A DNA stretch of 64,000 nt from Amanita rubescens (Eukaryota > Basidiomycota > Agaricomycetes > Agaricales > Amanitaceae): assembly GCA_015039365.1 (NCBI GenBank), contig WION01000218.1:26194-90193 (forward strand). Direction: 5' to 3'. The notes below the pieces were generated by a model. The model had not been told where the DNA came from. It saw only the letters and a list, made by a program, of their open reading frames with translations, and ran no database searches. Positions 37,948-64,000 of the stretch are shown here, piece by piece. Each line of letters starts with the position of its first letter. Position 1 is the first letter of the stretch. A program made the translations under genes and the position numbers.

Positions 37948-38122
37948 GCCCAGTCAAAATCGATTCTGTGAGAAAACAGGTCGAAACCGCGTGATTCCGT
38001 ATTTAGCGGGATGGGACGGGTTTCAAACGCTTCTACACCGTCGTAATGTCAGGAACACGGCACGTTACGTCACCGGTCACGCGTTCAAGTTATCCGAGAC
38101 TCGATAGCATGCCTCGAACATC

Positions 38123-40480: not shown

Positions 40481-40499
40481 TGAAGCATGTCTGGGACGT

Positions 40500-41619: not shown

Positions 41620-42960
41620 TTCGCATTCCCCAGGATTCTTTAGAACCGTTCGCCACGCCGCCGCCCGCGGTATTCTTACACCAGCGCCTCCGTCGTTTTT
41701 TAGAATTGTTCGCCACCCCCTCGCCTGCGGTATTCTTACACTGGTACCTCCATGGTCTTTGAGAACCGTTCCCCACACCCTTGCCCGCGGTTTTCTTACA
41801 CCATCACCATGGTCTTTGACAACTGTTCCTCACGCCGTCGCCTGCGGTATTCTTACACCAGCAGCGCCTCCGTCGTTTTTTAGAATTGTTCGCCACCCCC
41901 TCGCCTGCGGTATTCTTACACTGGTACCTCCATGGTCTTTGAGAACTGTTCCCCACACCCTTGTCCGCGGTTTTCTTACACCAGCACCATGGTCTTTGAC
42001 AACCGTTCCCCACGCCGTCGCCTGCGGTATTCTTACACCAGCAGATCCATAACTGTTCCCCACCCCCGCCTGCGGTTTTCTTACACCCCACTTGTAGTTT
42101 TCGAGAACCGTTTCCATGCCCCCGCCCACGGTTTTCTTACACCAACAGCTACACAGTTTTTGAGGACCCGCGGTTTCCTTACATCAGCAAACCTATAGTT
42201 TTTTTAGGACCATTTGCCACCCCTGTTCCCGTGGTTTTGTTACACCAGCAACTCAATGGTCTTTGAGAACTATGCCCCACGCACTTTCCTGTGGTTTTCC
42301 TACACCAATAGACATCTAGTTTTTGAGAACTGTTACCCACCCCTTTGCCCGCGGTTTTGTTACACCAGGAAATCAATGGTCTTCGAGAACTGTGCCCCAC
42401 GCACCTGCCCGTGGTTTTCTTACACCAACGGATCCATAGTCTTGACTCTTTGAGAACCGTTACCCACCCCTTCGCCCTCGGTTTTGTTACACCAGGAAAT
42501 TGGAATCAATGGTCTTTGAGAACTGTGCCCCACGCACTTGCCCATGGTTTTCTTACACCAATGGATCAATAGTCTTTGAGAACCGTTCCCCACCCCTTTG
42601 CCCGTGGTTTTCTTACACCAACGGACCCATAGTTTCTGAGAACCGATTCCCACCCCTTTGCCCGCAGTTTTCTTACACTGGCAGTCCATGGTCTTTGAGA
42701 ACTGTGCCGAATGCCCTTTCACCTGGTATTCCTACACCAGCGCAACCATGGCAGTTTTTGAGAACCGTTCGCAACCCCCACGCCCACGGTTTTCTTACAC
42801 CAGCACCCCGATGCCAGTTCTTGGGAACCGTTCGCAACCCCCTCGCCCACGGTTTTCTTACACCAGCACCCCGATGCCAGTTCTTGAGAACCGTTCGTCA
42901 CCCCTCACTCGTGGTTCTCGTACACCAGTACCTCCACAGTCTTTGAGAACCGTTCCTCAT
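41620..42960 (+). repeat. Left subterminal minisatellite of the transposon
   Basis: About 22 imperfect units of roughly 55-65 bp. Consensus elements are TTTGAGAACCGTTCCCCAC, GCCCGCGGTTTTCTTACACCA and an ATGGTC/CCATAG spacer. Several unit pairs are near-identical (41680-41810 and 41870-41990), indicating recent block duplication. Confidence 0.9.
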
Positions 42961-42980
42961 AAGTTTATGGGTTGACCGCA

Positions 42981-44696
42981 GTCCATACCTGTGAAATTGA
43001 ACTTCAACCTTGCAATACCTGCCCCCGCGCGTATCGTCGATATGTTGGTCCAGATAGCCGAGAAAATGGAATCTTCAACTGGAACAATAAACTTCTTTTC
43101 ACCCACGATCTCTTAGACGACTACACCGCTTCGTTCACATCATCTGAAACTCCATTTACCGCATGGATGAGCGTGGTACAGAGAAGATACATACGATATG
43201 CTTCACCTGAGCCATTCGTTCGCCGCGATGATGTTTTTTTGGCGGCTTGGTTTGCCTACAGCAATATTCAGGCGATGGATGGCGATATGAGTTGCCCGGG
43301 GTGCGGGCCTACTCCTGACAACGTGATTTGGGATGGAGTAAGCCTCTCTTTTCATCGCAAACACCTCCTCCCTACCTTACGGCCTCCAACGGTGGTGAAC
43401 GAAAATTCTTTGGAGAGAGAGAGCAAACGCATCTCGCAATCACTGATCAAGTCCGCAGAAGTTCGCCGCAATATGCAGAAAGTCATTGATGCAGCTGGCA
43501 CCACCAAAGGCGAAGCAATACTTTCACTCGGGCAACTGACAGACCACTTTGGACTAATACAGGCGACTAGCAGCGCTTTGAGGGAAATAAATCAAGAGCT
43601 CGGAGATTACTTCAATAGCCACTATGGCATTGAGATGTTAGCGAGCGAGAGAAGGCCTAGTTCAGAGATTTCCCAGCTTTTTCGACAGGTACGTGGATCA
43701 TGTGGCTTTACATCAATCTGGTTCTTATCCTGGGTGTACTACAGATCGCAGCCGACGACTCAGTTCTACAGATGATAACGATCTCATCAAGGAAGCTTCT
43801 AGAAGAGTTTGTCGAAAATCCGTCGCCGGTGACAGTATCGCCTCTCATCACTATACCCGCCATCTACCGCGCACTCCGATTTGAAGAGCAGCATCATAAA
43901 CAATCATACTCTGCACCACTTATTGCAATCTGCAGGTGGATAGCGAACAAAGCCAAAAGCATTCTCGAATCGATGTTATCAGACACAGCACCCGGCATAG
44001 ATCTCACGGCTATGGCGCTAAGTTCCAATGATTGGAGAAAGGTACGTCATTGTCGAGTCGTTCGTGCGCAAGCAAAGTTTCTGATTGAACGAGTTGCAGA
44101 CGGGTACTTGCTACAGCATGCCACAAATCCGCCACAGGCCAAGGTACCCGAGGCTCAAGGATGATAACGCTGGCGAGAGCGACGAGCGTGGTGGCCAATG
44201 CTCAAAATACTATTGGCAGTATAGCCAAAGACGATTGACAGGCGGCATTATGTGTGCATGGTGCACACATAGCATTTGTTACGGGTTTCACTGCATTCCC
44301 AGAGGCGAAGGGCGTAACGACGTTTTTTCAGCAATGATTACACGATGGCCCAAGGCTCCGAAACGCGTCATATATGATTTTGCATGCGCGCTGGGTCCCT
44401 ACTGCATGACGCGTGAACCGGACTTTTTCACTGACACCATTTTTGTAGTAGATGACTTCCACGCAAAGGGTCATACAAAGTGCTCAGCAGCGTCATTCCT
44501 CAAAACATATGCCGAACTGGACCCGCGCTTACTTAAGATCAATTCCAGTGCAGCTGAGTGCGGAAATGGAGGAATTGGGCGCATCCGTAAATCAGTCAGT
44601 TACATGACCCAGGGCCGGGCAATCCTATACACAAAAACTTTCATTTCAGTTTGGAATCGTATAATGATTCGCAAGCAACTGGGGATGGACAAGTAA
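42981..44696 (+). CDS. KDZ-associated CxC-type transposon protein with transposase-like C-terminal half, N-terminus unclear
   Basis: Three exons in phase: to 43688, 43745-44041 and 44100-44696, stop TAA. Exon 1 opens with CEIELQPCNTCPRAYRRY, then GIFNWNNKLLFTHDLLDDY, FTSSETPFTAWMSVVQRRY, DGDMSCPGCGPTPDNVIWDG and HRKHLLPTLRPPT. Exon 3 carries GGIMCAWCTHSICYGFHCIP, EGRNDVFSAMITRWPKAPK, VIYDFACALGPYC, FVVDDFHAKGHTKCSAASF, INSSAAECGNGGIGRIRKS and WNRIMIRKQLG. The YDFAC...D.FH..GHT.C pattern resembles the catalytic region of KDZ transposases, and paired-Cys clusters are typical of proteins carried with them. No ATG starts exon 1: the upstream frame is bounded by a possible acceptor ACCGCAG at 42980. 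The 5' end either lies beyond the left minisatellite or is lost. At least 536 residues. Confidence 0.7.
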
Positions 44697-44759
44697 ATAG
44701 TGTATTATGCAATTTCATACAAGAATAAACTGTAGCTGGACAGGTGCACAAAAACTATA

Positions 44760-45700
44760 ACTGAGTGGTGGTGCAAAGAAACCATACCCGAGTGAGGCTG
44801 AGATGGTGCAAGAAAACTAGAGGCAGTTGGTGGTGCGAGGAAACCATACCCGAGCGAGGCTGAGATGGTGCGCGAAAACTATCGCTGGCCAGTGGTGCGA
44901 GGAAACCGTACCCGAGCGAGGCTGAGATGGTGCGAGAAAACTGGAGGCAGTCGGTGGTGCGAGAAAACCATACCTGAGTGAGGCTGGGATGGTGTGGGAA
45001 AACTGGAGGCAGTTAGTGGTGCGAGGAAACCATAAGCAAGCAAGGTTGAGATGGTGCGAGAAAACTGGAGGCTGTCAGTGGTGTGAGGAAACCGTACCCG
45101 AGCGAGGCTGAGATGGTGCGAGGAAACTAGAGGCAGTCGGTGGTGCGAGAAAACCATAAGCAAGCGAGGTTGAGATGGTGAGAGAAGACTATCGCTGGCC
45201 AGTGGTGCGAGAAAACCATACCCGAGCAAGGCTTAGATAGTACGAGAGAACTAAAGGCAGTCGATGGTGCGAGGAAACCATAGGCAAGCGAGTTTGAGAT
45301 GGTGAGAGAGAACTGGAGGCTGTCAGTGGTGCGAGGAAACTATACCCGAGCGAGGCTGAGATTGTGCGAGGAAACTAGAGGCAGTCGGTGGTGCGAGGAA
45401 ACCATGGGTAAGCGAGGTTGAGATGGTGAGAGAAAACTATCGTTGGCCAGTAGTGCGAGAAAACCATACCCGAGCAAGGCTGAGATGGTGCGAGAGAACT
45501 AGAGGCAGTCGGTGGTGCGAGGAAACCATAGGCAAGCAAGGTTGAGATGGTGAGAGAAAACCATACCCGAGCGAGGGTGAGATGGTGCGAGAGAACTAGA
45601 GGCAGTCGGTGGTGCGAGGAAACCATAGGCAAGCGAGGTTGAGATGGTGAGAGAGAACTATCGCTGGCCAGCGGTGGGAGGAGACCATAGCTGGGTGAGG
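44760..45700 (-). repeat. Right subterminal minisatellite of the transposon
   Basis: Units of about 55-65 bp built from GGTGCGAGGAAACCATA, CCCGAGCGAGGCTGAGAT and GGTGCGAGAAAACTAGAGGC. The core TGGTGCGAGAAAACC is the reverse complement of GGTTTTCTCGCACCA, matching the left-array core in inverted orientation. Two cores occur per unit. Confidence 0.88.
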
Positions 45701-46173: not shown

Positions 46174-46465
46174 CCGGAGGTCCCTCGCCATATCTTTGTC
46201 ACGGTTTATAATTTGTAGCCCAATGTGTTAACATGTACTACCACCCGTTTACTGCTATCATATGTTTTGGTTGCTCTGGATCCGTATTTTCATCGTGCGA
46301 CGCTGGCTATTTATCACTGTTCGACATCGTCGTATCATGCACGATGCTCGCTGGTCCTCTGTACCACATATGTCAAATAAGCGCACATTGAACATCAAGA
46401 AGCACCGTTTCTCGACACCCTGTACGAATTTCTCAGATATATTTCTTTGACAAAAAATAGAAAGC
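46174..46465. pseudogene. Relics of F-box last exon and Hsp70-like 3' end (right side of insertion)
   Basis: Starts with the duplicated CCGGAGGTCCC, continues the F-box last exon and 3' flank (TCGCCATATCTTTGT), then from about 46305 a minus-strand relic of the copy 8-type Hsp70 terminal exon and part of the preceding intron (ACCGTTTCTCGACACCCTG), ending near the ATAG/AGCG motif at about 46465. Confidence 0.82.
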
Positions 46466-46706
46466 GTAGAATCTGAATCTGAATCTATGCATAGGAGGTG
46501 AGTCGGCGTATGGAAATATAGAGTACACAAGTCGGAGCGCCGATGAGTCGAGAATGTCTGAAAACATGATAAAAAGATGAAAAGAATTCCCGGCACTCGA
46601 GTCATGCACATAAAGAACCGTTAATGCCAATTCGTATCCCCCCGTGAGTTACACCCTCTCAGGAGCAACTGATACGACCCTTCCGAAGGTCAGTAGCATT
46701 GATCCA

Positions 46707-48711
46707 CTACGCCTGTGGCGCCTGAACGCGATGTTTTTCGATTAAGCGGATGGTTTCTTCCAAAGTATAGTCTTTGTCACCGAGACGTGAGGTGGGGATG
46801 CATTCGCAAAATGTGCGAATATCATTGTGGACTTGTGCAATCTCTGGTGACTGGGCATAATCCTCAAGGGCAGATACGACGCTTTCTTCGGATATATCGA
46901 TCGCTGACAGTCGATGCATCACAATTGTGAGGTCCACGATATATGCCATGACGCATGCTATGTTGCGAAAGCTACCAATATGTTTTAGCATTCTAGCACC
47001 GACTCTAAAACAAGGGACGTACGTGTTTTGGTAAACATCAAAAATCCACTTGGCAAACAGGACTGCTGTCCCGATGGACAAAATAACAATGCCTGCAGGG
47101 GTTGATGCGGCACCAGCAATGGCGGCCACCGTTACCATCGTCAGGCCATCGCTAGGGCTGAACAACGAAGTGAGAACAGGGAACAAAATCCTTGAATCTA
47201 TACATACGTCTTGGTATTCGGATTTGCAACCAAATCATCGACAAGTACCAACATCTTCGCCTTGAAATCGTTGCCCACCAGGTACTGCAAGAGGTAAGGA
47301 TTAGTATTACAAAAGCGCGTCTGATGAAAGGAATGTACAGCATTTGAGTCGTGGATATTCCAAACGGAAACGATATCGCGATGGATCACGTCGAGGCATT
47401 GCTGAAGTTTCTTTTGTCTGAAGTCCGTGCTTGAGAGTAGCCCGTTCCAGTATCCTGCGCAGATAAGAAATTGAACAGAACAACAGGACGTGTATGTACG
47501 CACTTTTCCGACCAATGCTATCAGAGAAGGCTTAAGTACACGCGCACAGGCATTCAGTGCAAATGCTCACTCAATAGACGCCTCAATTTTCAGGTCGTTA
47601 TCTGCTCTTTGAGCGAGGGAGAAGTTGAGAGAAGAGGGCTCTGTGTGCCAAGGAACGCCCGTTTGCTTTTGTATTTCCTTATCGGTAGCTTGTATCAATT
47701 CTCTGATAGTATCTTTGTATCTCTGGCCACCTGAAAAGGGGTAAAGGGAAGCGTTAACTTTGCAATCGACTCCGAAGAGCGGTGCTACCCACTAGACACC
47801 CGCATTATAGGAACTTCCCCGATTGCTTTTGTCAAGGGGTCAACGCACAACTCTTTGAAAGTCCTCTTGGCTTTCTCCTCGCCGTCAAGCCAAAGCTGCT
47901 CTGTGCTTCCGCCTCTGAAAGCAGATTTCCGAATTTCCGACGTAACAAGTATATCGTACTTTGTGAATACAACAATATGAGGCACTGTGTTTGTCGCTTG
48001 TTAGGGGAGCTTGGATGGCAGAGAATGGTGAGACTTACCGCCGCGTCCACGCACCAGATTGACTATGTCCTCCACTCCTCTTTCTGCGACGCGATCGCCA
48101 GCGACAGGCACTGAGATACAAATCCTGAAAGTATGCTGTCTCGAATTGGAACATAATGGTCGGTGCCCAGTGACTCACCAGATGGCATGAAGTTTGTCTT
48201 TGAGTTCCGTCATTTGCTCACGTCCTTCGATGAAACGCTTCACCGTGTCGAACTTGGCAACCTCGCCAGGCTCGAAGCCTTCGGAGTCGTGTAAAATAAT
48301 CTTGTCGTTATTAGGATGACGAAATTCAGCGTCGATGTTTGCTTTTCCTGGGCCATCGTGAGAGACTTGCTGAAGGGCGATCAGCATCGGGGTCCTTCAA
48401 TGATAATGCAAGCGCTTACAGCAAAACCTTCCCCGACACCAAAGACTTTGTTGATCATCGATGACTTTCCACATCCCGTCTATAGAAAGTCGGAGATCGA
48501 TTAATTATATCTTACATCTCGCTAAGAAACGACAATATTCGATACCTTTCCCACCACTAATATGCGGAATCTATGAGCCAGATAGCTGCCGTCAGCGCTG
48601 GAGAAACAGTTGAGGTATAAGCGGTGCGCACTGAGAACACTCAGCCGTGATGTCTGCTACAGTGGAGCGTAGAGGAGTATCATCGACAGTTGTTCCGTTG
48701 TTAGGGTCCAT
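46707..48711 (-). CDS. G-domain (small GTPase-like) protein with C-terminal hydrophobic helix, copy A
   Basis: ATG at 48711 (MDPNNGTTVDDTPLRSTVAD), first intron from 48631, then HYLAHRFRILVVGK joined across GTATCG...CTATAG to TGCGKSSMINKVFGV: together GKTGCGKSS, the P-loop (G1). Then QVSHDGPGKANIDAEF, IILHDSEGFEPGE (G3 D-x-x-G-like), LKDKLHAIW spliced to ICISVPVAGDRVAE, and PHIVVFTKYDILV (G4 TKxD). The C-terminal exon (47186-46707) has a hydrophobic stretch AGIVILSIGTAVLFAKWIF, then helices with RNIACVMAYIVDLTIVMHRL. The length and motif order fit the fungal G-domain family that resembles AIG1/IRG-type GTPases. Function unknown; membrane association is inferred from the hydrophobic segment. 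Lies in segmental duplication copy A. Confidence 0.8.
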
Positions 48712-49538
48712 AGTGAAAGAGCCGTCTAGTTTGGAAGTGCTGGTGCTTGAATTTGAATGAGTAGCTGGTAATGGATCTGTGAAACGAGCTCCGTAGGAAC
48801 AGAAGTACCTTAGTAAGTTGATTGATTCTCCCTTGCCATGAACCGAATAGAAGTTCGCGGATTTGGGTCGTGGGTATCACTGACATCATGGAGGGCGTTC
48901 TTTTCCACGTCAACTTGTGGAACGTGACTATGGCAAGTCCCAATTAGTAGTCCTCAGGCACCTACTTCCATTTTTCTAAAAATCTTTATGTTTCCCTGTC
49001 ACAAAGGCGTCTATCGATTGACCCAGGGAAATACTTCACAGCCTTGATCTTCTACGATTGGAAAAGAGCTTATCACCACGATGCAGGGATTATATAAGCT
49101 GACTACTACACCTAATGGCTCAGTCAATGTAGCAGCGGACCGACTTTGTAGACAATTTGAAATAAGCTGAAAAGATCTTCAAAATAACCGAGGCGAGGAT
49201 GGAAAAGAATGAACGGGTCGAAAAGGCGGCGGGCAACGTGAGAGAGAGAGTGGATGTGCGACCTTGGCTGCACGATCAATGACGGCATTGACGTGGGTCC
49301 AGTGTCCTCGCCGTTGGACAAGGTCGAGCAGCCAGCGGCGAAGATAGGCAGTAGATAGGCCCAGAGATGTGGGTTGGCTAATATTTTTAGATGAAGTTAT
49401 GATCGATCACGATCGATGATCGGAGAAGATTGTGCCTTGGGGATGCGCTGTGGGAATACGATGACGTAAGTGCATTCTTTACCGTTCACTGAATCCTTAT
49501 CGGAAGAGGTCGTTTGCGACTCCCCACACGAGCACATC
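48712..49538. other. Divergent intergenic region between two G-domain genes
   Basis: About 830 bp separating the minus-strand gene (start 48711) from the plus-strand gene (start 49539), so it probably holds both promoters. A palindromic GATCGATCACGATCGATGATC cluster lies at about 49400-49421. No ORF with recognisable motifs. Confidence 0.45.
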
Positions 49539-50627
49539 ATGCCGCCGCAGAAACTTGCAACCGCTAATCTTGTAGGGACTATGCGTGATTCTCACAGATT
49601 TCTTCTCTAATACTCGAGCAGGCTATTGAGCGCTTTCGAATCTTAGTCATCGGCAACGCCAACGCCGGGAAGACAACCATTCTGAAGAAGGTGTGCCATG
49701 CCCAGGGTCGTGAACCGGTTTGTTTCAATAGAGATGGTGAACCGGTGTGTCACCTGCTTTTCTGAATGTCGCCCTTAGTATTCATTCGCCCTCGTTTAGA
49801 TTGCTGCAGAATTGAAGCCAGATGCCTCGGTATGTTTCGGGTGCAACTGTATCCTTCTTTAATGGCAAATTAATGCAATTTCGCAGCGCGGAGAACATGA
49901 TATAGAAGACAGTTTTCAATATCCGACAGCTCACGGCTTCATTTTTCACGATTCCCGTGGGTTCGAGGCAGGTGCTACTGGCGAACTGGATAATGTTACA
50001 GATTTCATAAAGAAACGAGCTGAGAGAGAGGAATTAAAGGATCGGCTTCATGCAATTTGGTGCGCTAAGACCTGCAACATATTGTAATTTTCTGATTTTT
50101 TGTCTGCCGCTCAGGTATTGCATTCCGACCAGCAACGACAGACCGATGACAGAAGCGGGGAAGAAATTATTTGAGATTGACACCGGAAATGGTCGGCAAA
50201 CGTCTACATCACCTACTGAATGCATTGCTTATTCTAAATACAAGTTCCTGTCATTGCGATCTTCACGAAAATGGATGGTCTTGAAGAAAGGGCTTATAAC
50301 CGGCTAGCAATGGACGGCATTTTCGACGAAGAGAAGGCCACGGCTGAGGCAAAAGCTACATTCGAACGCAACTATCTGGAGCCACTTGAAGCGGTAAAGC
50401 ACAAGCCGCACCATACCATAAAACTCCGCGGTATGCTGCTCACATCGACGGTAACAGTGACCAGCTCAACCATTCTCCACCCAGACATGCACAAGGAAGA
50501 CACTACCTGCGACGAGCTGATCATGAGAACATCACAGGCCCTCAACGGCAAAACTCTAAAGTTGTTCTGTCTCTCAATCCTTCGGAATGATATGGAATCT
50601 CGTATCAAAGATGTTATCAACAAGTGA
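49539..50627 (+). CDS. G-domain (small GTPase-like) protein, shorter divergent paralogue
   Basis: Exon 1 49539-49571 (MPPQKLATANL), intron GTAGGG...GAGCAG, then AIERFRILVIGNANAGKTTILKKVC with P-loop GNANAGKTT. Two short exons follow, then GFIFHDSRGFEAGATGELD (G3) and LKDRLHAIW joined over GTGCGC...CTCAG to YCIPTSNDRPMTEAGKKLF. The intron GTCGGC...ACAAG leads to VPVIAIFTKMDGLEERAYNRL (G4 TKMD). The last part has FERNYLEPLEAVKH, MHKEDTTCDELIMRTSQAL and KLFCLSILRNDMESRIKDVI, a well-conserved C-terminal block of this family, ending TGA 50625-50627. A splice from GTGAGA here to a short exon ending at 50736 is possible but would overlap the next gene's start. No hydrophobic C-terminus, unlike copy A. 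Confidence 0.72.
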
Positions 50628-50716
50628 GATTGCTTCTTCCTCCCAGATAACCAGTAGCTCGATGCGATACTACAGGATAATTATACCAAAGGCGGAAGGT
50701 GAGGATAACGTCAACT

Positions 50717-53700
50717 ATGTCACCTTCTATCGGTAATCATCGCCCTCCCTTAGAGGCTCGCAAATCAGGCTCGTTTTCGCATGAACAAGCAAAATCGTTG
50801 TTCTGCGACGTGATGTATTGCTTTCCGCACATGCTGGTACGCATGCACTCTCGTTATACTTAATTATTCACCCGCGCTTACAATGCCGCAGCCCGTACGT
50901 AATAGTTGTACTATAGTGCCTTGCTAATCCTCCTTGGTAGAGTGTGAGCGTCCTTACATAAGTTGACGAGCTATTAATCACGCAATTACCTTACGTCACT
51001 CTTAGTTTGTAAGCACCTCATTGCTATGATTGTCATTGTTTGCCCTACTCATCATAATACTAAACCTCAAACATAACATAAACTTCAGGACGTAGGTCTC
51101 TACATTCCTGAGGGTATCGTCACTGATATCCTCGCTCGCTCCTCCCCTCCACAGAATGTATGTAACTGGTTATTTGGGAGGAAACTAGCTTGCTCTTATC
51201 AACTTTTCCTCATCTTCACAGCTAGTGCGTTCTTTAAGGTTTACTTTGATGGCACTTATGGAAATATTCCTTATTGGTTGCCCACAGATTGTGAGTGCCA
51301 ATGTTCCAGTTTTACTGTACTTTGCTGATAGTAGTGTGGACTGATGGCAGCAGGTGGGGTCTTGATTGTTTTAAGTTGAGTGGTGAATGTCTTACTGGAT
51401 ATATTGCAAACTACTAGGATGTGAGTCTCTCTGAGAATTGTGGTTTGTGGCTGTAGTGATGAACTACTTGATGTCTACAGATGGTGAGTTATTTGTGATG
51501 CTGTCACACTCATGCCTGATCATATCACTTGACAATCAGGATGTGGGTGTCTACTACATCACCAAAATCAACCATGCAGGCTAATGTTACAACTGGCAAA
51601 CCTTATTTGAACTATACAGAATGTGAGTGTGCTTGTTTGATACACCAGGGACAGATGATCTTATGCAAGTGCTATACTATCACCACCAGAATGTGAACTT
51701 TATTTGGACCTTTAACTGCATAGTACTAACATCATCTACTCACAATCATTTCTGGATTGGTGTATATCAGGCTGTGAGTTGGGATGTTCCTCAACCCAAT
51801 CACAGTGGTATACTGATGGCCTCATAATGACATTGAACAGGTTGATGTAAGTTTCCACTGCTCTCACACCTGCCAACTGAGTGACAAATGCTGTATTTGA
51901 ATTTTGAAGGCTGTATGTATCCTACAACAACAATTTTAAACTTAACTAATAGTAGATACTCTGTCTGATTCACAGATGGTATGTGCCATCTGCTCTTCAT
52001 GACCACTTATTGATCATTGCATTGGTCAATACTTGGCATTGCAGAGAGTAAGTTCATTCCATCACCACAGCATTGTGACCAATCTAACTGATTGATATGA
52101 TGTGGTGTAGGAGGTATGTGATTAGTTTGTCCCAAATTTCTGAATGACATTGACACAAAGCCAATGTGGTGGATATCAGAGCATAAATATGACTGTGAGT
52201 TTATTTGATTACTAGACATTAGTGGATTGTGTTTGTAACTCACATGTCTACTTTGCACTACTGGTGTGCCACTCTTTACAGAAAGTGAGTTTCTGACTTT
52301 TCCATATTAGCCCATCACAGCTCACATCTGCTCTTCACAGGATGTGAGTTTCTGGCTTTTCTGTTGTGATCAGCCCCTCACAGCTCACCTCTGCTCTTCA
52401 CAGGATGTGAGTTTCTGACTTTTCTGTTGTGATCAGCCCCTCACAGCTCACCTCTGCTCTTCACAGGAAGTGAGTTTCTGACTTTTCTGTTGTGATCAGC
52501 CCCTCACAGCTCACCTCTGCTCTTCACAGTTTGTGAGTTTGTGACTTTTCTGTTGTGATCAGCCCCTCACAGCTCACCTCTGCTCTTCACAGCAAGTGAG
52601 TTTCTGACTTTTCTGTTGTGATCAGCCCCTCACAGCTCACCTCTGCTCTTCACAGCAAGTGAGTTTCTGACTTTTCTGTTGTGATCAGCCCCTCACAGCT
52701 CACCTCTGCTCTTCACAGCTTGTGAGTTTCTGACTTTTCTGTTGTGATCAGCCCCTCACAGCTCACCTCTGCTCTTCACAGTTTGTGAGTTTCTGACTTT
52801 TCTGTTGTGATCAGCCCCTCACAGCTCACCTCTGCTCTTCACAGCAAGTGAGTTTCTGACTTTTCTGTTGTGATCAGCCCCTCACAGCTCACCTCTGCTC
52901 TTCACAGGGAGTGAGTTTCTGACTTTTCTGTTGTGATCAGCCCCTCACAGCTCACCTCTGCTCTTCACAGCTTGTGAGTTTCTGACTTTTCTGTTGTGAT
53001 CAGCCCCTCACAGCTCACCTCTGCTCTTCACAGCTTGTGAGTTTCTGACTTTTCTGTTGTGATCAGCCCCTCACAGCTCACCTCTGCTCTTCACAGGGAG
53101 TGAGTTTCTGACTTTTCTGTTGTGATCAGCCCCTCACAGCTCACCTCTGCTCTTCACAGGGAGTGAGTTTCTGACTTTTCTGTTGTGATCAGCCCCTCAC
53201 AGCTCACCTCTGCTCTTCACAGGGAGTGAGTTTCTGACTTTTCTGTTGTGATCAGCCCCTCACAGCTCACCTCTGCTCTTCACAGTTTGTGAGTTTCTGA
53301 CTTTTCTGTTGTGATCAGCCCCTCACAGCTCACCTCTGCTCTTCACAGCTTGTGAGTTTCTGACTTTTCTGTTGTGATCAGCCCCTCACAGCTCACCTCT
53401 ACTCTTCACAGCAAGTGAGTTTCTGACTTTTCTGTTGTGATCAGCCCCTCACAGCTCACCTCTGCTCTTCACAGGGAGTGAGTTTCTGACTTTTCTGTTG
53501 TGATCAGCCCCTCACAGCTCACCTCTGCTCTTCACAGCAAGTGAGTTTCTGACTTTTCTGTTGTGATCAGCCCCTCACAGCTCACCTCTGCTCTTCACAG
53601 GTTGTGAGTTTCTGACTTTTCTGTTGTGATCAGCCCCTCACAGCTCACCTCTGCTCTTCACAGGTTGTGAGTTTCTGACTTTTCTGTTGTGATCAGCCCC

Positions 53701-55039
53701 TCACAGCTCACCTCTGCTCTTCACAGCAAGTGAGTTTCTGACTTTTCTGTTGTGATCAGCCCCTCACAGCTCACCTCTGCTCTTCACAGGTTGTGAGTTT
53801 CTGACTTTTCTGTTGTGATCAGCCCCTCACAGCTCACCTCTGCTCTTCACAGGTTGTGAGTTTCTGACTTTTCTGTTGTGATCAGCCCCTCACAGCTCAC
53901 CTCTGCTCTTCACAGCGAGTGAGTTTCTGACTTTTCTGTTGTGATCAGCCCCTCACAGCTCACCTCTGCTCTTCACAGCGAGTGAGTTTCTGACTTTTCT
54001 GTTGTGATCAGCCCCTCACAGCTCACCTCTGCTCTTCACAGTTTGTGAGTTTCTGACTTTTCTGTTGTGATCAGCCCCTCACAGCTCACCTCCGCTCTTC
54101 ACAGTTTGTGAGTTTCTGACTTTTCTGTTGTGATCAGCCCCTCACAGCTCACCTCCGCTCTTCACAGTTTGTGAGTTTCTGACTTTTCTGTTGTGATCAG
54201 CCCCTCACAGCTCACCTCTGCTCTTCACAGGAAGTGAGTTTCTGACTTTTCTGTTGTGATCAGCCCCTCACAGCTCACCTCTGCTCTTCACAGCACGTGA
54301 GTTTCTGACTTTTCTGTTGTGATCAGCCCCTCACAGCTCACCTCTGCTCTTCACAGCTTGTGAGTTTCTGACTTTTCTGTTGTGATCAGCCCCTCACAGC
54401 TCACCTCTGCTCTTCACAGGATGTGAGTTTCCAAACTTGGGACCCCACAAAATCAATATTTGATTGCTTTTCAAACCTTGCATCCTTTTTTTGAAATGCA
54501 TTTGTAGAATGTACGTACATGCTATTATGTTTTGTGGTTTCTGCTCTTTCACACCTTCCTGTCTCCCACTGCTCCCCAATATTTGTCACTAATTGATTTC
54601 ATGTGGTTTTATAGGACCTTCACTTGCAGCAGTGCTTCAAACTTGTCTTGCAATTTATGCCAGAGTCACAGGTGTGGTACAGGCTTTGTTAAAATCTGTT
54701 GTTGCCTTATCATCAATATTATCATCATTCTATCACTTCTCAGGCTTCTCATCAAGCTATCTGGATTGGCATTTGTGTGTTTTTACATTCTCTGCCACTG
54801 CCATTAATGCCTCAGCCTGTTTCATAGTGGCTGAGGCCATTGCAGATATCTGCTTGTTCACCTCTCTCTCAATATCCCATGAGGACTTCAGGAAGGCTGT
54901 GGACTTCTGTCTAAATGCAGTGTCATATCCGAAACTGAAGTCTGCTGTGGAGCAACAGTCTTCTATCACTGACACCAATGTAGTCTTGGACATCCTGAAG
55001 GAGAATAGGGACAATTACAAGTTGTTGGTACTGCAGTGA
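50717..55039 (+). CDS. Gene split into single-codon exons (about 57 introns), function unknown
   Basis: Exon 1 (50717-50836, 40 codons) encodes MSPSIGNHRPPLEARKSGSF and then EQAKSLFCDVMYCFPHML. A 55-nt intron (GTACGC...CCGCAG) follows, then exons of exactly one codon starting at 50892, 50941, 51006, 51089, 51155, 51222, 51288, 51351, 51418, 51481, 51540, 51620, 51690, 51771, then 51841 (6 nt), 51910, 51976, 52045, 52111, 52180 (15 nt), 52282, 52341, then 33 more at 63-bp spacing from 52404 to 54420, and 54508. Every gap starts GT and ends AG; most donors are GTGAGT, GTAAGT or GTATGT. All internal exons are multiples of 3 and none is a stop. Introns of the first part are 46-87 nt and unrelated in sequence; several carry branch motifs (TACTAAC near 51723). 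Terminal exon is ambiguous: 54615-54692 (stop TAA), or acceptor at 54682 into a 119-codon frame ending TGA 55037-55039 with hydrophobic segments (NASACFIVAEAIADICLFTS). The product resembles nothing I know. Confidence 0.72.
52285..54422 (+). repeat. 63-bp tandem array of near-identical introns plus one codon each
   Basis: 33 perfect-period units from 52344: a 60-nt segment beginning GTGAGTTTCTGACTTTTC and ending CTCTGCTCTTCACAG, then a variable trinucleotide. A shorter 56-nt relative precedes (52285-52340) and an 85-nt divergent one sharing GTGAGTTTC follows (54423). Variation in the 60 nt is confined to a handful of bases (about 52355, 52539, 53400 and a shared C at 54093/54156), while the trinucleotides differ. 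Retention of any unit meets an in-frame TGA four codons in. Confidence 0.97.
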
Positions 55040-55104
55040 AGCAGGGTTGACTCCATGTATAATGTATAAATGCATATTATCATAGGTCACAATGATCCCG
55101 GGCC

Positions 55105-55320
55105 CCCTTAGTAGCATGAAATCATTTTCGAATCTCTCAAATCTCGATTGACTCATCGAATCACAGCCCCCAACAGGTCGCTCATTGCTCTATCTTCAAA
55201 CAATGCCATACAGCCTATACAGGTTACTATGAGTCTACATGCCGCAGCTTTTGCCCCGGGACGAAACTCATCTGAAGCGAAGGAAGCGAAATCTACTAGT
55301 AAAGCTTAGCAACTTGTGTT
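55105..55320 (+). pseudogene. Degenerate relic of the F-box gene 3' region
   Basis: Aligns by eye with 37411-37590 of the F-box gene (GCATGAAA-GATTTTC, CTCGATTGACTC-TCGAATCAC, TATGAGTCTAC, GAAGCGAAG), with substitutions and gaps that break the frame. It continues into a degraded version of the F-box 3' flank before Hsp70-like copy 8. Confidence 0.65.
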
Positions 55321-55446
55321 GTTATGTGAACCGGTGTCCCTGGCAACTTCTTTGTTTATCAAGTATCACGCCAATTCCACTTTGTTATGCCTGAGTTAAG
55401 CACTTCTCATTCTAGATGCATATTTCCATCGTGCAACTCTAGGTAT

Positions 55447-57880
55447 TTAATCACTGTTCGACATCGTCGTATCATACACGATGGTCGCTGGTCCTCTGTG
55501 CCACATGTGACATATGTCAATTAAACACACATTTAACATCAAGAAGCATAAAACGCACCGTTTCTCGACACCCTGTATGATTTTATCAGATATATTTCTT
55601 TTAAAAAACAGAGAGCATAGAAACGTACATCTTCCTTCCAGGCAATATGAGCCTTGAGCTCCGTCAATCCGAAAAGTAGCACAACGTCAAGCTCGAATCG
55701 GAAATACTCCTTTCCTCCGTTCAATAGTGGCTTCAAGTGACTTTTTAGGGTCGTTAGATCGGCTATAACGTCGCAGTTATCTTCGAAAAACTCTGTCGAG
55801 GTATTTGATAATCAGCCTTCCTCTCGACTGGGATATAAGCTATGTACCTGGCTCGAGATCCAACCATAGCGGTGCCTTCGCAGCGCGTCCACGATAACAT
55901 TTCAAGACAAGCTCAACAGTATCAAACTCCTCAAACTGGCGTCGCGGTAATTCGTGGAAATAGGTCTTTCTAAACTCCTTTTCCTCGGAAACGGCAGTTG
56001 CCTGCGTTCTAAAATTAAGTAAAATTGTCTCGCAAAAATGAACGCTACTAGCCTTTGCTAGAATTTCAGAAAAGATGCCTTCAATCCGACGTGGTCCAGA
56101 CGGCGAGGGGTAGACTAGACTAGGGCGACAAATATGTTCGGGGTTCGTTGGCTCGAACAAGCGCGTGGCCTCAATACCGAATGTAAACTTCGAGACGCGG
56201 ACGGAGACACGATGATCGATATGGTAAGAGACGGCTCCTTCTGCAACCGCCTTGTTGCTGCGAGAAAATTTAAATCAAGTCAACAACTCTCTGTACTTGG
56301 AAGTCACGTACAGATATCGATCGGGCCGGAGAATTTGGATGTCTCGCTCTTTAAAGTGTCCATCCAGTCTTGAGAAGAGGTAGTCTGAGGTAGCAAAGCC
56401 ACCAACGAGACATATCGCCTACAAAGTGAAATGGGAAACCTGGACACATCGGGGTAAAGGACGATTACCTTGATGGTAGTTCTGGATTTTGAACATTGGT
56501 CTTCAATCGTCTCAATGATGGCCTTTACAGAGGGGTCGAAGAAGCTCGCTACTTTCTCCCTAAATCGCGTAGCGTAGCATCAAGCACGAGGCAAAAGTTA
56601 TGAATAAAGTACTTGCCCACTGAGTTTTAAACCACCCGCTTTAATATTGAGATCGGGATCGTTATCGCTTCCTTTTCCGAACTTGATAAATGACGGCTTG
56701 GAAGAGTTCCTAAAACTTGTCTTGGTTGTCTTATCGAAAAACTTTTTCATCGTCGCTATCTCTTCAGGGCCTCCAAACTTTGATCCATGTAAATAGCCTA
56801 GAGTCAAGTAGATAAGGGTGAATATAGCAAAACGAAGATCAGCGGTCACTTTTCAAGTATTCTTCAGCACGTCCTGTGACAAAAGTCGACCCTTGGAGAA
56901 GACCTGCAAGAGACGGTTAGCTACAGGTGAACTCTTCCACGTCAAGAACGTACATTCAGCCGCCGAGATCTCTTTCAAAGATCTGTCTGATGCACGGGTA
57001 TAGGTGCTAATATCAATGGTTCCACCGCCACGGTCAACGACCATCACTCCATAGTCCAACTATCACATTTGTCAATCGAGAGTAGGAGTAAAATGAGTAA
57101 TTGCTTTACGCACCAAGCGTTCCAATACTGTTGGGATGTTGTTCAAGCAATAATGCAGACTAGCCTCGCCTTCAGTGACGAAGCTGACTTGATCCAACGC
57201 CTCCGCTTCGTTCTTCACCAGACCCGCAGAGATAGCCGCATTCCGCATCTCTGATTGCTGTCTCCCTTCCCACCCATTCGGATGGCTGAGAATAAAGTTT
57301 ATATCGTCTTTTACCGAGTTCCACATATCGTCCCCTTGGCGTTCTTGGATATACCGTTTCGTTGCGTCGAATAGATGGCGATGGCGGTTTTGTTCCTCGG
57401 AAGTGGGGGCAGGTCTCCCGCGTTGAATCCTTGCTCAGCGGCCAAGCGAGGGGGACGAAGATGCAATTTAAACCTTTGAAATCCGGTGAGTGCTGCGGAA
57501 ACTGGAAAAGATGCTTTACTGTACCATTCTGATCTGACTATGCCCGGAGTTTCGAATAGTTCTGGATTCGTATCTGGATCTGTTTCCGATCCAACTGCGA
57601 CGACTGTTCCATCTTCATCATAGCAAACTACGCTGGGAATTTTCGAGTCACCCGCAACCTTTTGTTGTCTGGGAAACCTGCCAAGTAACGAGTAAGACGG
57701 AAAACACTACCACAGCATGTTAATAAGATTCGTACTGAGTTACTCCGCGAATTTCGGGAGATTGGCCAGGGTCCAAAATCGAGTACGAGGCACCGCTGAA
57801 CGTCGTGCCAAGTCAAAGGCCACGACAAGTTTCCTCCTAGTTCCCGTGTATGGCTTCCGATGAACGGTGGATGTGGACAT
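55447..57880 (-). pseudogene. Hsp70-like ATPase (HSPA12 type), distant copy 8, decayed
   Basis: Same exon order as the tandem copies. Start MSTSTVHRKPYTGTRRKL at 57880. The phosphate-1 loop is broken: one base is missing at about 57811 so VAFD is followed by a shifted frame, whereas the codons for GTTFSGASY can be seen in the other frame. A second, larger loss near 57375 removes about seven codons and shifts frame in the IDIFSDLL region. Elsewhere LSHPNGWEGRQQSEMRNAAI, VTEGEASLHYCLN, CGGG changed to RGGG (VVDRGGGTIDISTYT), the adenosine motif near 56400, RPDRYL and ELKAHIAWKED are readable, with terminal GPATIVYDTTMSNSD and TAA at 55447-55449. Its 3' end is the source type for the short relics at 37.9, 46.3 and 61.8 kb. 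Confidence 0.8.
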
Positions 57881-58555: not shown

Positions 58556-58691
58556 CATCCATGCGAGGGAGGTAGTGGTGTACAAGTACCATGCAGGCAT
58601 TGACCCGCTTAGTAGGCATCGTGAGCGGTACCAGAGGAACACGTTACGTCACCGGTCACGCGTTATCCGACGATAGCATGCCTCGAACATC

Positions 58692-60118
58692 ATGAGAACC
58701 ACGCTCCCAACTTTGTCTTACAACCCGACAGGTTTTTCGCGGGACGAAGATTTTCACAGTTCCGCGTACACAAAGGGACAAGCTCCACGAACAGATCTTC
58801 AACACCTCGTTCCATGGAATACATTTGAAACAGAGATCAACGAGGCTATTACTACTCGCATGTTCGCTATGGGCATTCCCTTAGACGCCGAATATGACAT
58901 CGGGTCCCTACCAAAGAAACAACCACTCGTGGTGAACGAAGAAAGTGTTCGACAGGAGGCGAGAAGGCAGCTGCACGATTTGGTGGTAGAGGTGCTGGAT
59001 ATACTTGGGATTGAAGGGTGGTTCTCCCCGTCAGACTCTGGGAATAATCAAATCGTTGGAGAGCCCGACTTTTCTTGGTTGCAGGCTCCCACCAGGCATC
59101 CCAAGGTTGTGGTACGTGTATCAATGATTTCTATTTTTGACACGCCTCATCTTTGCGGGGACAGGTAGAGTACAAGACAAAATGGGCGGCCCCTCTTGAG
59201 AATTTGCCCGAGTATTTTCAACGTAGAGCTCAGGAAATCCCTCGGCTGGCGCGACAGTCGATCGACGCTGTCTTCCAACTCTACGGCTACATGACGTTTA
59301 ACGAGAACAAATATGGCATACTCAATAATATGGATTGTGCTTGGTTTTTCCAACGCGTCGAGACTCCCGAAGGCCAAGGCAAAACCTTGCAGTACTACGG
59401 GCCGATCAGTTTTGGTTCGGTTGGTTCACCAAGTATGCTCAAAGCCTTTGTGGGCACTGTTCTGCTTGCCGAAACTGCACTTAGTACCTGGTTTCATACT
59501 AGTTCCCCAACCTCTGCCAATGTACCCTCTGCCACAGCTACTCGTAGCCGTGACGCAGCCCTTGCGCAGGCACAGTCATACCATCCGGTCGTCGAGGCTG
59601 GATCATATCCGGTTTTGCCACTTGACCCTCGTCTTTGCTATTTTGACCGTACTTCCGTGCGTCATGCGCCACAACGAGGCTGTACATTAAAGGCAACACT
59701 GGTGAAACGAATTTGGAATTTGGATGTCTACTGCAAAATTATAGACCTTTTTCAGAGGGGAGATGCCATGGATGCGCTGGATACGGAGGTGCGCAATTAT
59801 GCCACCTTGCAGCATCTGCAAGGCATAGTTATTCCGTGCGTCCGTGGATATTACGATGTTTGGGGACTCTTGAGGCTCCTTGCGCTCGAAGATGTTGGTA
59901 CCGCAATCCCTGAAGATGGGCCAATCAATACCCGGACGAGGAGACGGATGAGATCCGCTCTTGGTCGCATTCACTCGGCAGGATATGTTCACGGTGATAT
60001 TGCACGACGCAACTTCTGCCAGAAGGGTCGTGCGATATCCTTGGTCGACTTGGAGACGTTGGCGGCGGGAAGTCCTGAACAAATGGCAGCTGAATTAGCC
60101 GAAATTGATGCATTGTAG
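58692..60118 (+). CDS. PD-(D/E)XK nuclease-like and protein-kinase-like fusion, copy B
   Basis: Exons 58692-59111 and 59165-60118, 457 residues; intact. Same signatures as copy A: GEPDFSWL, VEYKTKW, GYYDVWGLLRLLALEDVGT, HSAGYVHGDIARRNF, LVDLETLAAG. Differences from A are scattered substitutions, a one-residue loss (EGWFSP here, EGWFESSP in A) and a three-residue gain (ALSTWFHTS). Both copies staying open suggests selection or a very recent duplication. Confidence 0.78.
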
Positions 60119-60691
60119 ATTATTTCTTACACCTGAATTGCATGCAGTAATTTCACACTTGGTCTGCATCTCCTGCAGAGGCTCGCTGCCGAATCTCGGT
60201 CATCGGCGCATCAAGCAACGGGAACTGTGACTCTCCAAATGCATTCGTCCCGCGTCTCAGTACTTAGCGTAAACCCGTAAAGCTGCATCGTCCGGAGGAG
60301 CGTCTGGGTAGCGTCGCACGTCGGTACACAATCCCAGTTCCTCTCAAAGCATGCTCTGGATTATTTCGCTTCGCCTGAATAGCGTCCAACACGCTCCAAA
60401 GTAAACTTGCAGCAGCAGTTAGAGCGATATTCGTATCAGACGATCGACCAAACTGTCCAAGGGTGCTGATGCAGAGGGGCATAAATATTGAGAACTGCGG
60501 TATGGATTCGATTAAAAAACGTCGGTGACTAGTAACTATGAGCAAACTACAAGCTTCCGTTCGGAGTATATAGACTTCTTCGTTGAATCTGAAAAATACA
60601 AATGAGAAAAAGGAGCGTATGAGTCCATGACATAGCTACAAAAGTTCCATAAGTAATTTGTACGGATAGCCCTTACAATCGACCCCCAAAA

Positions 60692-61010
60692 CTAGTGGAC
60701 TAGCTTAGACAGATCGCCGTTGGTGGTGTTGGTGTCGTTACGGCCAAGGGATCCCAGGCCAAAGTTGGTAATAGCGCCGCGGAGGGTCCAGTAGTGGGTA
60801 ATATGTGTGATGGACGGTGTTGGTGGTGATACCGTGACCGAACAGTAGCGTAGCAATGGAGTTGTTGTGTTGCGGACAGAGTCGTCATCATTTTGCCAGG
60901 TGGCCTCGTCCCAGCTCGCTACTACAAGGGTACCAATGCGGGAAGGTACATGTCGAGAAAAGCGTTGAACCAGATACCAGCCGAAGTAGCCTTGTGAGCA
61001 TAGTCCTCGT
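60692..61010 (-). pseudogene. C-terminal fragment of an unrecognised protein gene, copy B
   Basis: Counterpart of 40168-40480. The best frame reads VASWDEATWQNDDDS, ITHYWTLRGAITNFGLGSLG and GRNDTNTTNGDLSKLV. No start and several frame changes. Confidence 0.45.
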
Positions 61011-61063
61011 CGGCCGTGGGGTCGTGTCCATTGTGAACCATGTTTGGGACGTAGAAAGAGTAA

Positions 61064-61495
61064 TACCTCCTGAGGGAGCGACGAAATATCTAGCTCATGT
61101 TTCATCACGAGCAGTGACGAAGTTCAAAGGCTTCCCAACTTGGACGTCAGCGTCGTTATATGTTGTTGATGACTAGCAGGCTAAAGATGGGCTGTTGAGC
61201 GCGCAAAGCGAGAACGCGTAACGTGGCGTAAACGAACCTGATCTGAGCTCTCTCAACCCACACCGTGACTGTCGCGCTCCTCCAAAACCGACAACCAGGA
61301 GGTATCGAATCGCCAACAATTGTAGACGCGTTTCAGTCGGTAACGAATTTTAGGTCCACATGTCGAGGAAGAAAGGATCCGGGAGCGGTTGTTGTCGAAT
61401 TGGATGTCGCTGTCGGGGAGGCTGAACAGGAGCTTTTCCAGATTGGAGATTTCGATTCCGAAGGTTATGGCGGAGGCGAGGGTTGTGGATGAGGG
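61064..61495. repeat. Dispersed repeat R1, copy c
   Basis: Third copy of R1. It is near-identical to copy b from GTAACGTGGCGTAAACG onward and conserves the same 75-codon frame (61265-61492). Confidence 0.8.
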
Positions 61496-61559: not shown

Positions 61560-61925
61560 GAAGGAACATATCTACACGAGGTGCTTAGTAGTTAGGTCTT
61601 TCAAAATAACCTCGCTGATGCATTTCCATAGCCATGGTGTACGTGAACCGGAGGTCCCTCGCCATATCTTTGTTTATAATTTGTAGCCCAATGTGTTAAC
61701 ATGTACTACCACCCGTTTACTGCTCTGCTTGCTCTGGATGCGCATTTTCATCGGGCGACACCGGCTATTTATCACTGTTCGACATCGTCGTATCATGCAC
61801 GATGCCCGCTGGTCCTCTGTACCACATATGTCAAATAAGCACACATTAAACATCAAGAAGCATAAAACGCACCGTTTCTCGACCTGTACGAATTTATCAG
61901 ATATATTTCTTTGACAAAAAATAGA
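61560..61925. pseudogene. F-box 3' relic and Hsp70-like 3' relic with empty transposon site
   Basis: GAACATATCTACACGAGG through CCGGAGGTCCCTCGCC (single copy at 61648-61658) is uninterrupted. From about 61765 the minus-strand Hsp70-like terminal exon, an intron (ACCGTTTCTCGACC) and trailing sequence follow. This is the empty counterpart of 40998-41152 plus 46174-46465. Confidence 0.85.
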
Positions 61926-62170
61926 GAGCATAGAATCTGAATCTGAATATATGCATAGGAGGTGAGTCGGTGTATGGAAATATAGAGTACACAAGTCGGA
62001 GCGCCGATGAGTCGAGAATATCTGAAAACATGATAGAAAGATGAAAAGAATTCCCGGCACTCGAGTCGTACACATAAAGAACCGTTAATGCCAATTCGTA
62101 TCCCCCCGTGAGTTACACCCTCTCAGGAGCAACTGATACGACCCTTCCGAAGGTGAGTAGCATTGAACCA

Positions 62171-64000
62171 CTACGGCTGTGGCGCCTGAACGCGATGTTT
62201 TTCGATTAAGCGGATGGTTTCTTCCAAAGTATAGTCTTTGTCACCGAGACGTGAGGTGGGGATGCATTCGCAAAATGTGCGAATATCATTGTGGACTTGT
62301 GCAATCTCTGGTGACTTGGCATAATCCTCAAGGGCAGATACGACGCTTTCTTCGGATATATCGATCGCTGACAGTCGATGCATCACAATTGTGAGGTCCA
62401 CGATATATGCCATGACGCATGCTATGTTGCGAAAGCTACCAATATGTTTTAGCATTCTAGCACCGACTCTAAAACAAGGGACGTACGTGTTTTGGTAAAC
62501 ATCAAAAATCCACTTGGCAAACAGGACTGCTGTCCCGATGGACAAAATAACAATGCCTGCAGGGGTTGATGCGGCACCAGCAATGGCGGCCACCGTTACC
62601 ATCGTCAGGCCATCGCTAGGGCTGAACAACGAAGTGAGAACAGGGAACAAAATCCTTGAATCTATACATACGTCTTGGTATTCGGATTTGCAACCAAATC
62701 ATCGACAAGTACCAACATCTTCGCCTTGAAATCGTTGCCCACCAGGTACTGCAAGAGGTAAGGATTAGTATTAAAAAAGCGCGTCTGATGAAAGGAATGT
62801 ACAGCATTTGAGTCGTGGATATTCCAAACGGAAACGATATCGCGATGGATCACGTCGAGGCATTGCTGAAGTTTCTTTTGTCTGAAGTCCGTGCTTGAGA
62901 GTAGCCCGTTCCAGTATCCTGCGCAGATAAGAAATTGAACAGAACAACAGGACGTGTATGTACGCACTTTTCCGACCAATGCTATCAGAGAAGGCTTAAG
63001 TACACGCGCACAGGCATTCAGTGCAAATGCTCACTCAATAGACGCCTCAATTTTCAGGTCGTTATCTGCTCTTTGAGCGAGGGAGAAGTTGAGAGAAGAG
63101 GGCTCTGTGTGCCAAGGAACGCCCGTTTGCTTTTGTATTTCCTTATCGGTAGCTTGTATCAATTCTCTGATAGTATCTTTGTATCTCTGGCCACCTGAAA
63201 GGGGTAAAGGGAAGCGTTAACTTTGCAATCGACTCCGAAGAGCGGTGCTACCCACTAGACACCCGCATTATAGGAACTTCCCGATTGCTTTTGTCAAGGG
63301 GTCAACGCACAACTCTTTGAAAGTCCTCTTGGCTTTCTCCTCGCCGTCAAGCCAAAGCTGCTCTGTGCTTCCGCCTCTGAAAGCAGATTTCCGAATTTCC
63401 GACGTAACAAGTATATCGTACTTTGTGAATACAACAATATGAGGCACTGTGTTTGTCGCTTGTTAGGGGAGCTTGGATGGCAGAGAATGGTGAGACTTAC
63501 CGCCGCGTCCACGCACCAGATTGACTATGTCCTCCACTCCTCTTTCTGCGACGCGATCGCCAGCGACAGGCACTGAGATACAAATCCTGAAAGTATGCTG
63601 TCTCGAATTGGAACATAATGGTCGGTGCCCAGTGACTCACCAGATGGCATGAAGTTTGTCTTTGAGTTCCGTCATTTGCTCACGTCCTTCGATGAAACGC
63701 TTCACCGTGTCGAACTTGGCAACCTCGCCAGGCTCGAAGCCTTCGGAGTCGTGTAAAATAATCTTGTCGTTATTAGGATGACGAAATTCAGCGTCGATGT
63801 TTGCTTTTCCTGGGCCATCGTGAGAGACTTGCTGAAGGGCGATCAGCATCGGGGTCCTTCAATGATAATGCAAGCGCTTACAGCAAAACCTTCCCGACAC
63901 CAAAGACTTTGTTGATCATCGATGACTTTCCACATCCCGTCTATAGAAAGTCGGAGATCGATTAATTATATCTTACATCTCGCTAAGAAACGACAATATT
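62171..64000 (-). pseudogene. G-domain protein, copy B, partial and frameshifted
   Basis: Near-identical to 46707-48540. The C-terminal exon (62650-62171) with the hydrophobic helix, the IILHDSEGFEPGE exon and the GCGKSS P-loop half are present, and the first exon lies beyond 64000. Compared with copy A, runs of four C are three C at about 63280 (breaking the LTKAIGEVP frame) and at about 63893 (just before a splice donor), and an A run is one shorter near 63198 in an intron. Either two frameshifts inactivate the copy or these are homopolymer errors in the assembly. Confidence 0.65.

Follow-up and report, generated by a model that had tools for sequence, protein, structure and literature searches.

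A GTPase-like gene family of Amanita rubescens in which a variable protein segment is probably encoded by single-codon exons in series

The window analyzed here is a stretch of 64,000 nucleotides (nt) of the Amanita rubescens genome (bases 26194 to 90193 of contig 133, in an assembly totaling 75.7 Mb). It holds a gene, denoted locus A, that is cut over much of its length into exons of a single codon. The gene model runs from 49539 to 55039 on the plus strand and comprises 68 exons that supply 449 codons, or 1350 coding bases, within 5501 bp. From 5′ to 3′, nine ordinary exons of a GTPase-like domain are followed by 56 micro-exons and three C-terminal exons (Table 1). All 67 introns have GT-AG borders and are 46 to 104 nt long, as expected of spliceosomal introns of ordinary fungal length; those that separate the nine domain exons measure 50 to 57 nt.

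Protein searches yielded ten different proteins (P0001 to P0010), of which seven are JGI proteins, encoded on contigs of 916 to 1901 nt. Up to the residues HML, the nine-exon part of the gene aligns with P0008, the NCBI model of a diverged locus (locus B, see below), and with P0003 and P0010; some internal stretches of this part are absent from the NCBI model P0004. The initial annotation had started the gene at an ATG at 50717, with a normal first exon of 40 codons. This ATG falls inside an intron (50699 to 50753), and the exon concerned, 50754 to 50836, is the ninth, eight GTPase-domain exons preceding it from 49539 onward; the start was corrected because the stretch ...IIIPKAEEARKSG... is continuous in P0001, P0004, and P0010. 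The P-loop GNANAGKTT is reached soon after the N terminus, and the translation also contains DSRG and FTKMD; these three are presumably the GTPase motifs G1, G3, and G4. A Pfam scan of P0010, P0001, and P0003 up to an E value of 1 returned general P-loop families only, none above the cutoff; the AIG1 domain was not among these hits, which gives no ground for assigning the proteins to AIG1/GIMAP. A PDB profile search produced no match at an E value of 0.01. The match of P0010 residues 247 to 318 to an acyl carrier protein in a PDB sequence search (E value of 7e-4) was absent with the profile at an E value of 0.01 and was treated as spurious. In Rfam, no match at the gathering score was found within 49000 to 56000.

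Between 50892 and 54510, 56 internal exons follow one another; two of them measure 6 and 15 nt, and the remaining 54 measure 3 nt. All are in phase 0 and bordered by AG and GT, and none contains a stop. This count had been given in the initial annotation and was upheld by a recount, as was the range of 46 to 87 nt for the introns among the first 22 micro-exons. In the first block, the 20 introns (46 to 87 nt) are mostly unrelated in sequence, with a mutual similarity (n = 19) of 0.58 to 0.60 versus 0.59 between introns of different loci. The second part is a tandem array of intron and codon. Its introns (n = 32) carry four substitutions relative to the consensus in 1920 bases, and 28 of them are identical to it; pi is 0.616 per site for the codons versus 0.0041 for the introns, an approximately 150-fold difference, as in hypervariable tandem-repeat genes, whose units are near-identical except at a few sites. 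An unspliced coding minisatellite was considered and excluded because the array unit has stops in all six frames. Across the gene, micro-exons rarely end in G (4 of 56, versus 7 of the 9 ordinary exons).

Table 1. Features of locus A (window positions) and of the array in the sister copy C408b
Feature	Position	Strand	Remarks
GTPase-like (G) domain exons 1 to 5	49539-49571, 49622-49744, 49800-49829, 49887-50059, 50115-50191	+	
GTPase-like (G) domain exons 6 to 9	50245-50430, 50485-50623, 50676-50698, 50754-50836	+	
First micro-exon block	50892-52284	+	21 micro-exons, of which 51841-51846 has 6 nt, 52180-52194 has 15 nt, and the other 19 have 3 nt each; peptide PSFDNLIQDMDNNAVDAMRESINMTK
Tandem array	52309-54431	+	Period 63 = 60-nt intron GTGAGTTT...CTTCACAG plus codon; 33.7 copies, 96% matches
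Array micro-exons	52341-54422	+	34 single-codon exons, one per 63 bp; peptide DDEFQQLFQGLLGGGFLQGQVVQVVRRFFFEHLD
Last single-codon exon (AAT)	54508-54510	+	Follows the array; shared with the other compared loci; P0001 seems to lack it
C-terminal exons	54615-54671, 54744-54774, 54828-55039 (TGA stop)	+	Conserved C terminus; P0001 aligns without a difference
C408b array	C408 19511-22937	-	55 units; eight exons of 2 or 4 nt

The regularity of this layout was assessed by scanning for chains of AG-NNN-GT units separated by introns of 40 to 110 nt. The chain within 50801 to 53800 reaches 25. In control tile-strands, the maximum was 2 for those of 3 kb (n = 32) and 3 for those of 2.5 kb (n = 44), which excludes chance. 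On the opposite strand, the chain in the region is only 1 long, and an antisense gene of the same layout was rejected on that ground.

The array intron and the C-terminal exon served as queries to find copies of the gene in the genome. Locus A is present in three contigs (C133, C777, and C408) with a micro-exon region identical over 3.6 kb; the same array codons recur at C777 128023-130058 and C408 36345-38380 (minus strand). A second tandem copy of the gene exists in two forms, C777b/c and C408b, and the diverged locus B occurs in five contigs. A splice-site dynamic program that permitted exons of 2, 3, 4, 6, and 15 nt yielded a model of locus B in four contigs, each time with 50 exons, all of them open and multiples of three; for C582 and C777c, the upstream exon lies beyond the stretch examined, and no full model resulted. 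Long near-identical arrays are prone to error, and C408b looks damaged, but an assembly or polishing artifact is extremely improbable given the identity of the locus A region across three contigs, the recurrence of locus B in five, and the same pattern at nonrepetitive places.

Comparison of loci A and B over the first 21 micro-exons separates what is held from what changes. Only 1 of 84 splice dinucleotide positions differs (GT to GC), versus 17 of 78 micro-exon bases; in the introns, 29 of 248 positions located 3 to 8 nt from the splice sites and 197 of 950 interior positions are changed. None of the 31 indels, 18 of which are not multiples of three, lies inside a micro-exon. Thus, exon length and splice sites are maintained while codons change. 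The array codons of A, B, and C777b/c include no stop among 107, versus 6.5 expected; C408b, with its 2- and 4-nt exons, was kept outside this count, and addition of its 3-nt exons gives 157 codons, still with no stop. The third base is A or T in 105 of these 107 codons, and C is never the second base.

The array of C408b differs from the others in that it contains CTA and GTA codons, which were seen in none of the 107. Its odd exons are suspected to represent a consensus error in a long array or a broken allele; 52 of its 54 introns equal the consensus. Unit numbers may also differ between the two forms of the second copy, 55 in C408b (a number that may include consensus errors) versus 25 in C777b plus 17 in C777c with a retrotransposon between them, and the flanks are 98.6 to 98.8% identical. 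The insertion, at C777 144986-151577 within the micro-exon array, appears from its reading frames to be a Ty3-type long terminal repeat (LTR) retrotransposon; it is young, with two 328-bp LTRs that are identical and what looks like a target duplication of 5 bp. The two gene copies on contig 777 are approximately 15.5 kb apart, the second being downstream of the first. Within the window, the duplicated segments 38061-40550 and 58640-61106 (92%) and 46174-48539 and 61648-64000 (97.7%) indicate a tandem duplication of approximately 15 to 20 kb.

The layout extends well beyond these loci. P0010 matched the genome 154 times (94 of 577 candidates scored), several matches per gene being possible, and an exon of the GTPase domain, taken from a distant subfamily, matched at least 150 places, a number that counts haplotype copies (of 243 candidates, 150 were scored). 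Fourteen sister places were picked along the rankings, not at random (C178, C439, C770, C168, C29, C583, C124, C56, C13, C223, C340, C89, C231, and C332). Chains of 3-nt exons are present at all 14; they are 6 to 23 long, several end at the edge of the stretch examined, and the chain at C178 reaches 27 if exons of 6 to 15 nt are permitted. The initial annotation had described a gene of a new type; the exon layout is borne out, but what was taken for a single gene is a family. Even though no stop filter was applied, stops are absent from the 164 chained codons at 12 sister places (leaving aside C439 and C770, which are probable alleles of C178 and C168), versus 13.5 expected from base frequencies (Fisher test, 7e-12, an optimistic value because the codons are nonindependent). 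Tandem Repeats Finder detected no repeat at C178 and C583, degenerate repeats of approximately 68 bp at C124, and, at C56, a single short repeat of 73 bp. The examples of C178 and C583 demonstrate that the layout does not require repetition.

Intron similarity ranges from 0.72 to 1.00 within repetitive loci and from 0.58 to 0.69 between loci. An introner burst, in which one intron sequence was dispersed to many genes, is not favored, given that introns are most alike within loci. Some sharing is possible, however, because for some loci the similarity of 0.66 to 0.69, a range that includes related loci, exceeds the level of unrelated introns.

Spliced products of such genes can be recognized in the protein data. 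P0001, from a JGI contig of 1337 nt, contains HML-PSFDNLIQDMDNNAVDATTESINMTE-, the exact 26-residue product (26/26) of the 21 micro-exons of the sister gene C408b; past this peptide, it has 26 residues of its own, DVFRFDFDELRRRVFRFQQRRRLRFD, in the position of the array and then a C terminus identical to that of locus A. A full-length relative, P0010 (449 amino acids, 62% identical), is encoded on a contig of 1800 nt, compared with the 5501-bp span of the A. rubescens gene, and has the variable stretch ALSLDLDDLHLHDRFHARLLDRFHFFHDLRGHEN. In P0006, another variable stretch is joined to the C terminus; the start of its open reading frame (ORF) is without explanation. The variable segments of P0010 and P0006 would likewise be encoded by single-codon exons. 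A further NCBI protein, P0002 (contig of 3257 nt), matches the C terminus. Because the ORFs cross the positions of introns in the A. rubescens genes, the JGI contigs are probably derived from RNA. If so, P0001 indicates, indirectly and for the sister gene, that the introns are removed from the mRNA. The view of single codons as exons in their own right, united in the mRNA, is supported directly for the sister gene by P0001 and further by the relatives P0005 and P0009 and by the comparative data.

By our reading, four JGI proteins (P0003, P0005, P0007, and P0009) enter the micro-exon region and then run on into an intron. For example, P0005 ends in HML-P-VRIAILPALLLLILLGRV and P0009 in HML-P-S-VSVLA, which resemble the 5′ ends of introns 2 and 3 in the genome; both would stop just past the first one or two micro-exon codons, in the next intron. 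Since an ORF necessarily ends at the first retained intron, these four proteins do not prove a 5′-to-3′ order of splicing.

The same protein data bear on two other readings of the region. According to one, the array and the chains are repeated sequence inside one large intron, spliced directly from 50836 to 54615, so that the codons are unused, an outcome that the initial annotation had named as incompatible with its proposal. Tandem duplication alone could yield identical introns, and the NCBI models P0004 and P0008 of A. rubescens omit the micro-exon region, having only a short unrelated tail after HML. However, P0001 carries the codons of the sister gene as residues, which contradicts a direct splice for that gene if the P0001 contig represents RNA; moreover, there is no stop in the 271 codons counted, the splice sites are frozen, and the same layout is found at C178 and C583, without a tandem repeat. 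A single large intron is therefore very improbable. P0004 and P0008 stop where the micro-exons begin, so that this annotation has missed the region.

In the second alternative, the micro-exons are real and in frame but optionally included, such that skipping generates a cloud of isoforms from each gene, as in the micro-exon genes of flatworms. All 56 micro-exons are multiples of three, so that any subset of them keeps the frame. Furthermore, P0001 is without the AAT-encoded residue that the models of A, B, and C408b keep before the C-terminal exon, where P0010 and P0006 have N, and the four ORFs described above end, by our reading, in a retained intron. A single possible skip is weak evidence, however, and may be an allele difference, and the retained introns may reflect unfinished splicing. 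Optional inclusion is regarded as a serious but rather unlikely alternative.

With regard to the mechanism, stepwise splicing by intron definition is favored. Introns of approximately 60 nt would be recognized singly, across the intron, in which case a 3-nt exon would need no exon definition. Removal would be stepwise, most simply from 5′ to 3′, with each codon already attached to the exon upstream by the time its own donor comes into use. As for evolution, the near-identical 60-nt introns could serve as a homology scaffold for unequal exchange or slippage, by which single codons would be inserted, deleted, or duplicated with the frame intact and the introns homogenized, while selection at the protein level would keep the codons diverse. 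This would leave a conserved GTPase with a rapidly changing peptide that may serve in recognition. Unit duplication is apparent in the array of locus A, where identical codons are adjacent 10 times, versus 3.5 expected (p = 0.0006); an excess at p < 0.05 is found in four of nine arrays, the other three being those of P0006 (0.005), C777b (0.015), and C408b (0.02).

The simplest account of diverse codons between homogenized introns would be selection acting on the protein. Alternatively, the codon diversity could stem from local hypermutation or junction filling at the 3-nt exons. Such a process would fit the approximately 150-fold excess of codon pi in the array of locus A, the exons of C408b, which vary even in length next to introns that are nearly all identical to the consensus, and odds ratios above 1 for codon versus intron change in eight of nine pairs. 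Yet the excess is significant in only one of these pairs (p = 0.04), although a modest excess is possible; no stop codon occurs in the counted arrays; and the odd lengths are confined to one contig, together with the CTA and GTA codons, which fits a consensus error. Hypermutation is thus considered improbable.

Several observations weigh against the combined interpretation of splicing and evolution. The splicing support comes from a sister gene and from relatives: the copy that P0001 matches is the sister one, and its probable RNA origin is deduced from ORF continuity and contig size; for P0010 and P0006, the single-codon layout is deduced from the proteins. At the sister places, the chains lie approximately 0.4 to 1.9 kb downstream of a same-strand GTPase match, a link by position. 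The frame of C408b is broken by its eight exons of 2 or 4 nt, and the copy C777b/c is interrupted by the retrotransposon. The excess of adjacent duplicates is nonsignificant in five of the nine arrays (C777c, 0.10; B, 0.17; P0007, 0.25; P0001, 0.48; P0010, 0.83), and the excess of codon over intron change is nonsignificant in eight of the nine informative allele or copy pairs (odds ratios of 0.9 to 3.1), among which the locus B pairs are mutually nonindependent. Positive selection on the codons is not demonstrated: all 12 codons changed between A and B are nonsynonymous, but the chance probability of this result in simulation is 0.16.

On balance, it is highly probable that locus A is a real protein-coding gene with a GTPase-like N-terminal domain, a 61-residue variable segment from 56 micro-exons, 54 of them single codons, and a conserved C-terminal segment, and that stepwise splicing and evolution on an intron scaffold jointly explain it. 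At the level of sequence, the exon layout, the conserved splice sites, the open frame, the spliced product of the sister gene, and the chains at all 14 sister places are the established elements of this interpretation.

PRDM9 zinc-finger arrays, TAL-effector repeats, and the WD40 repeats of fungal HET/NLR proteins consist of near-identical tandem units with few variable positions that arise by unit duplication and homogenization. In those repeats, the constant part is protein, whereas in the Amanita array it is an intron and is removed. Aphid bicycle genes contain many micro-exons. At the level of abstracts, they are described as a large, fast-evolving family recognized by gene structure (PMC9168663), but they are candidate insect effectors unrelated to the Amanita gene. 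The closest parallel in the abstracts and openings of the papers cited here is provided by the flatworm micro-exon genes (MEGs) of schistosomes and tapeworms, which have runs of micro-exons in multiples of three, down to 3 bp, encode variable proteins, and keep the frame upon skipping (PMC10526429; PMC7653826). With 68 exons and 56 consecutive micro-exons, the Amanita gene falls within the operational rule for MEGs (at least 7 exons, at least half of them multiples of three and shorter than 70 nt, in a run of at least 4; PMC7653826). It departs from the flatworm family as described (exons of 3 to 81 bp, introns of up to 5 kbp, secreted products; PMC10526429) in that 54 of its 56 micro-exons are one codon, its introns are 46 to 104 nt and partly tandem copies, and it starts with a GTPase-like domain. 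In the corresponding parts of other reports, a 1-nt exon is described in Arabidopsis APC11 (PMC4674806) and in Fusarium CYP621A (PMC12940212), the latter an example of a tiny exon joined in a fungus, and a 3-bp exon is described in Drosophila homothorax (PMC7392893); each is one such exon in its gene, compared with dozens in series here. The AIG/GIMAP immune GTPases, too, are summarized as large expanded families (PMC7053062), but AIG1 is absent from the Amanita Pfam hits. Among the titles and abstract openings of open-licence literature, a scope that most subscription papers fall outside, there was no description of single-codon exons in series, none of a repeat with a constant intron and a variable codon, and no paper combining "microexon" and "Amanita."

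Elsewhere in the window, minisatellites with periods of approximately 60 and 62 bp (41637-42904 and 44743-45691) lie beside open frames at 42963-44696 that are presumably transposase-like. Two similar open frames on the minus strand, 6558-7199 and 21482-22099, resemble Hsp70-type ATPases.

Very short exons are considered hard to recognize. Here, a single gene would require 67 correct splicing events, most of them at one-codon exons, and no sister place examined lacks the layout; a fungus thereby offers a direct test of intron definition, of the order of splicing, and of how small an exon can be. The array of constant introns and variable codons may represent a new way of making proteins hypervariable, with a scaffold of repeats that splicing removes. 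More tentatively, and with more doubt than confidence, Amanita may possess on the order of a hundred GTPase genes with a variable segment of one codon per exon and introns as the recombination scaffold, which would amount to a system dedicated to the evolution, and possibly the alternative splicing, of recognition peptides. If this is the case, each gene would gain, lose, and shuffle single amino acids with the frame intact and no build-up of repetitive protein, and the resulting peptides might act, for example, in self/non-self or microbe recognition.

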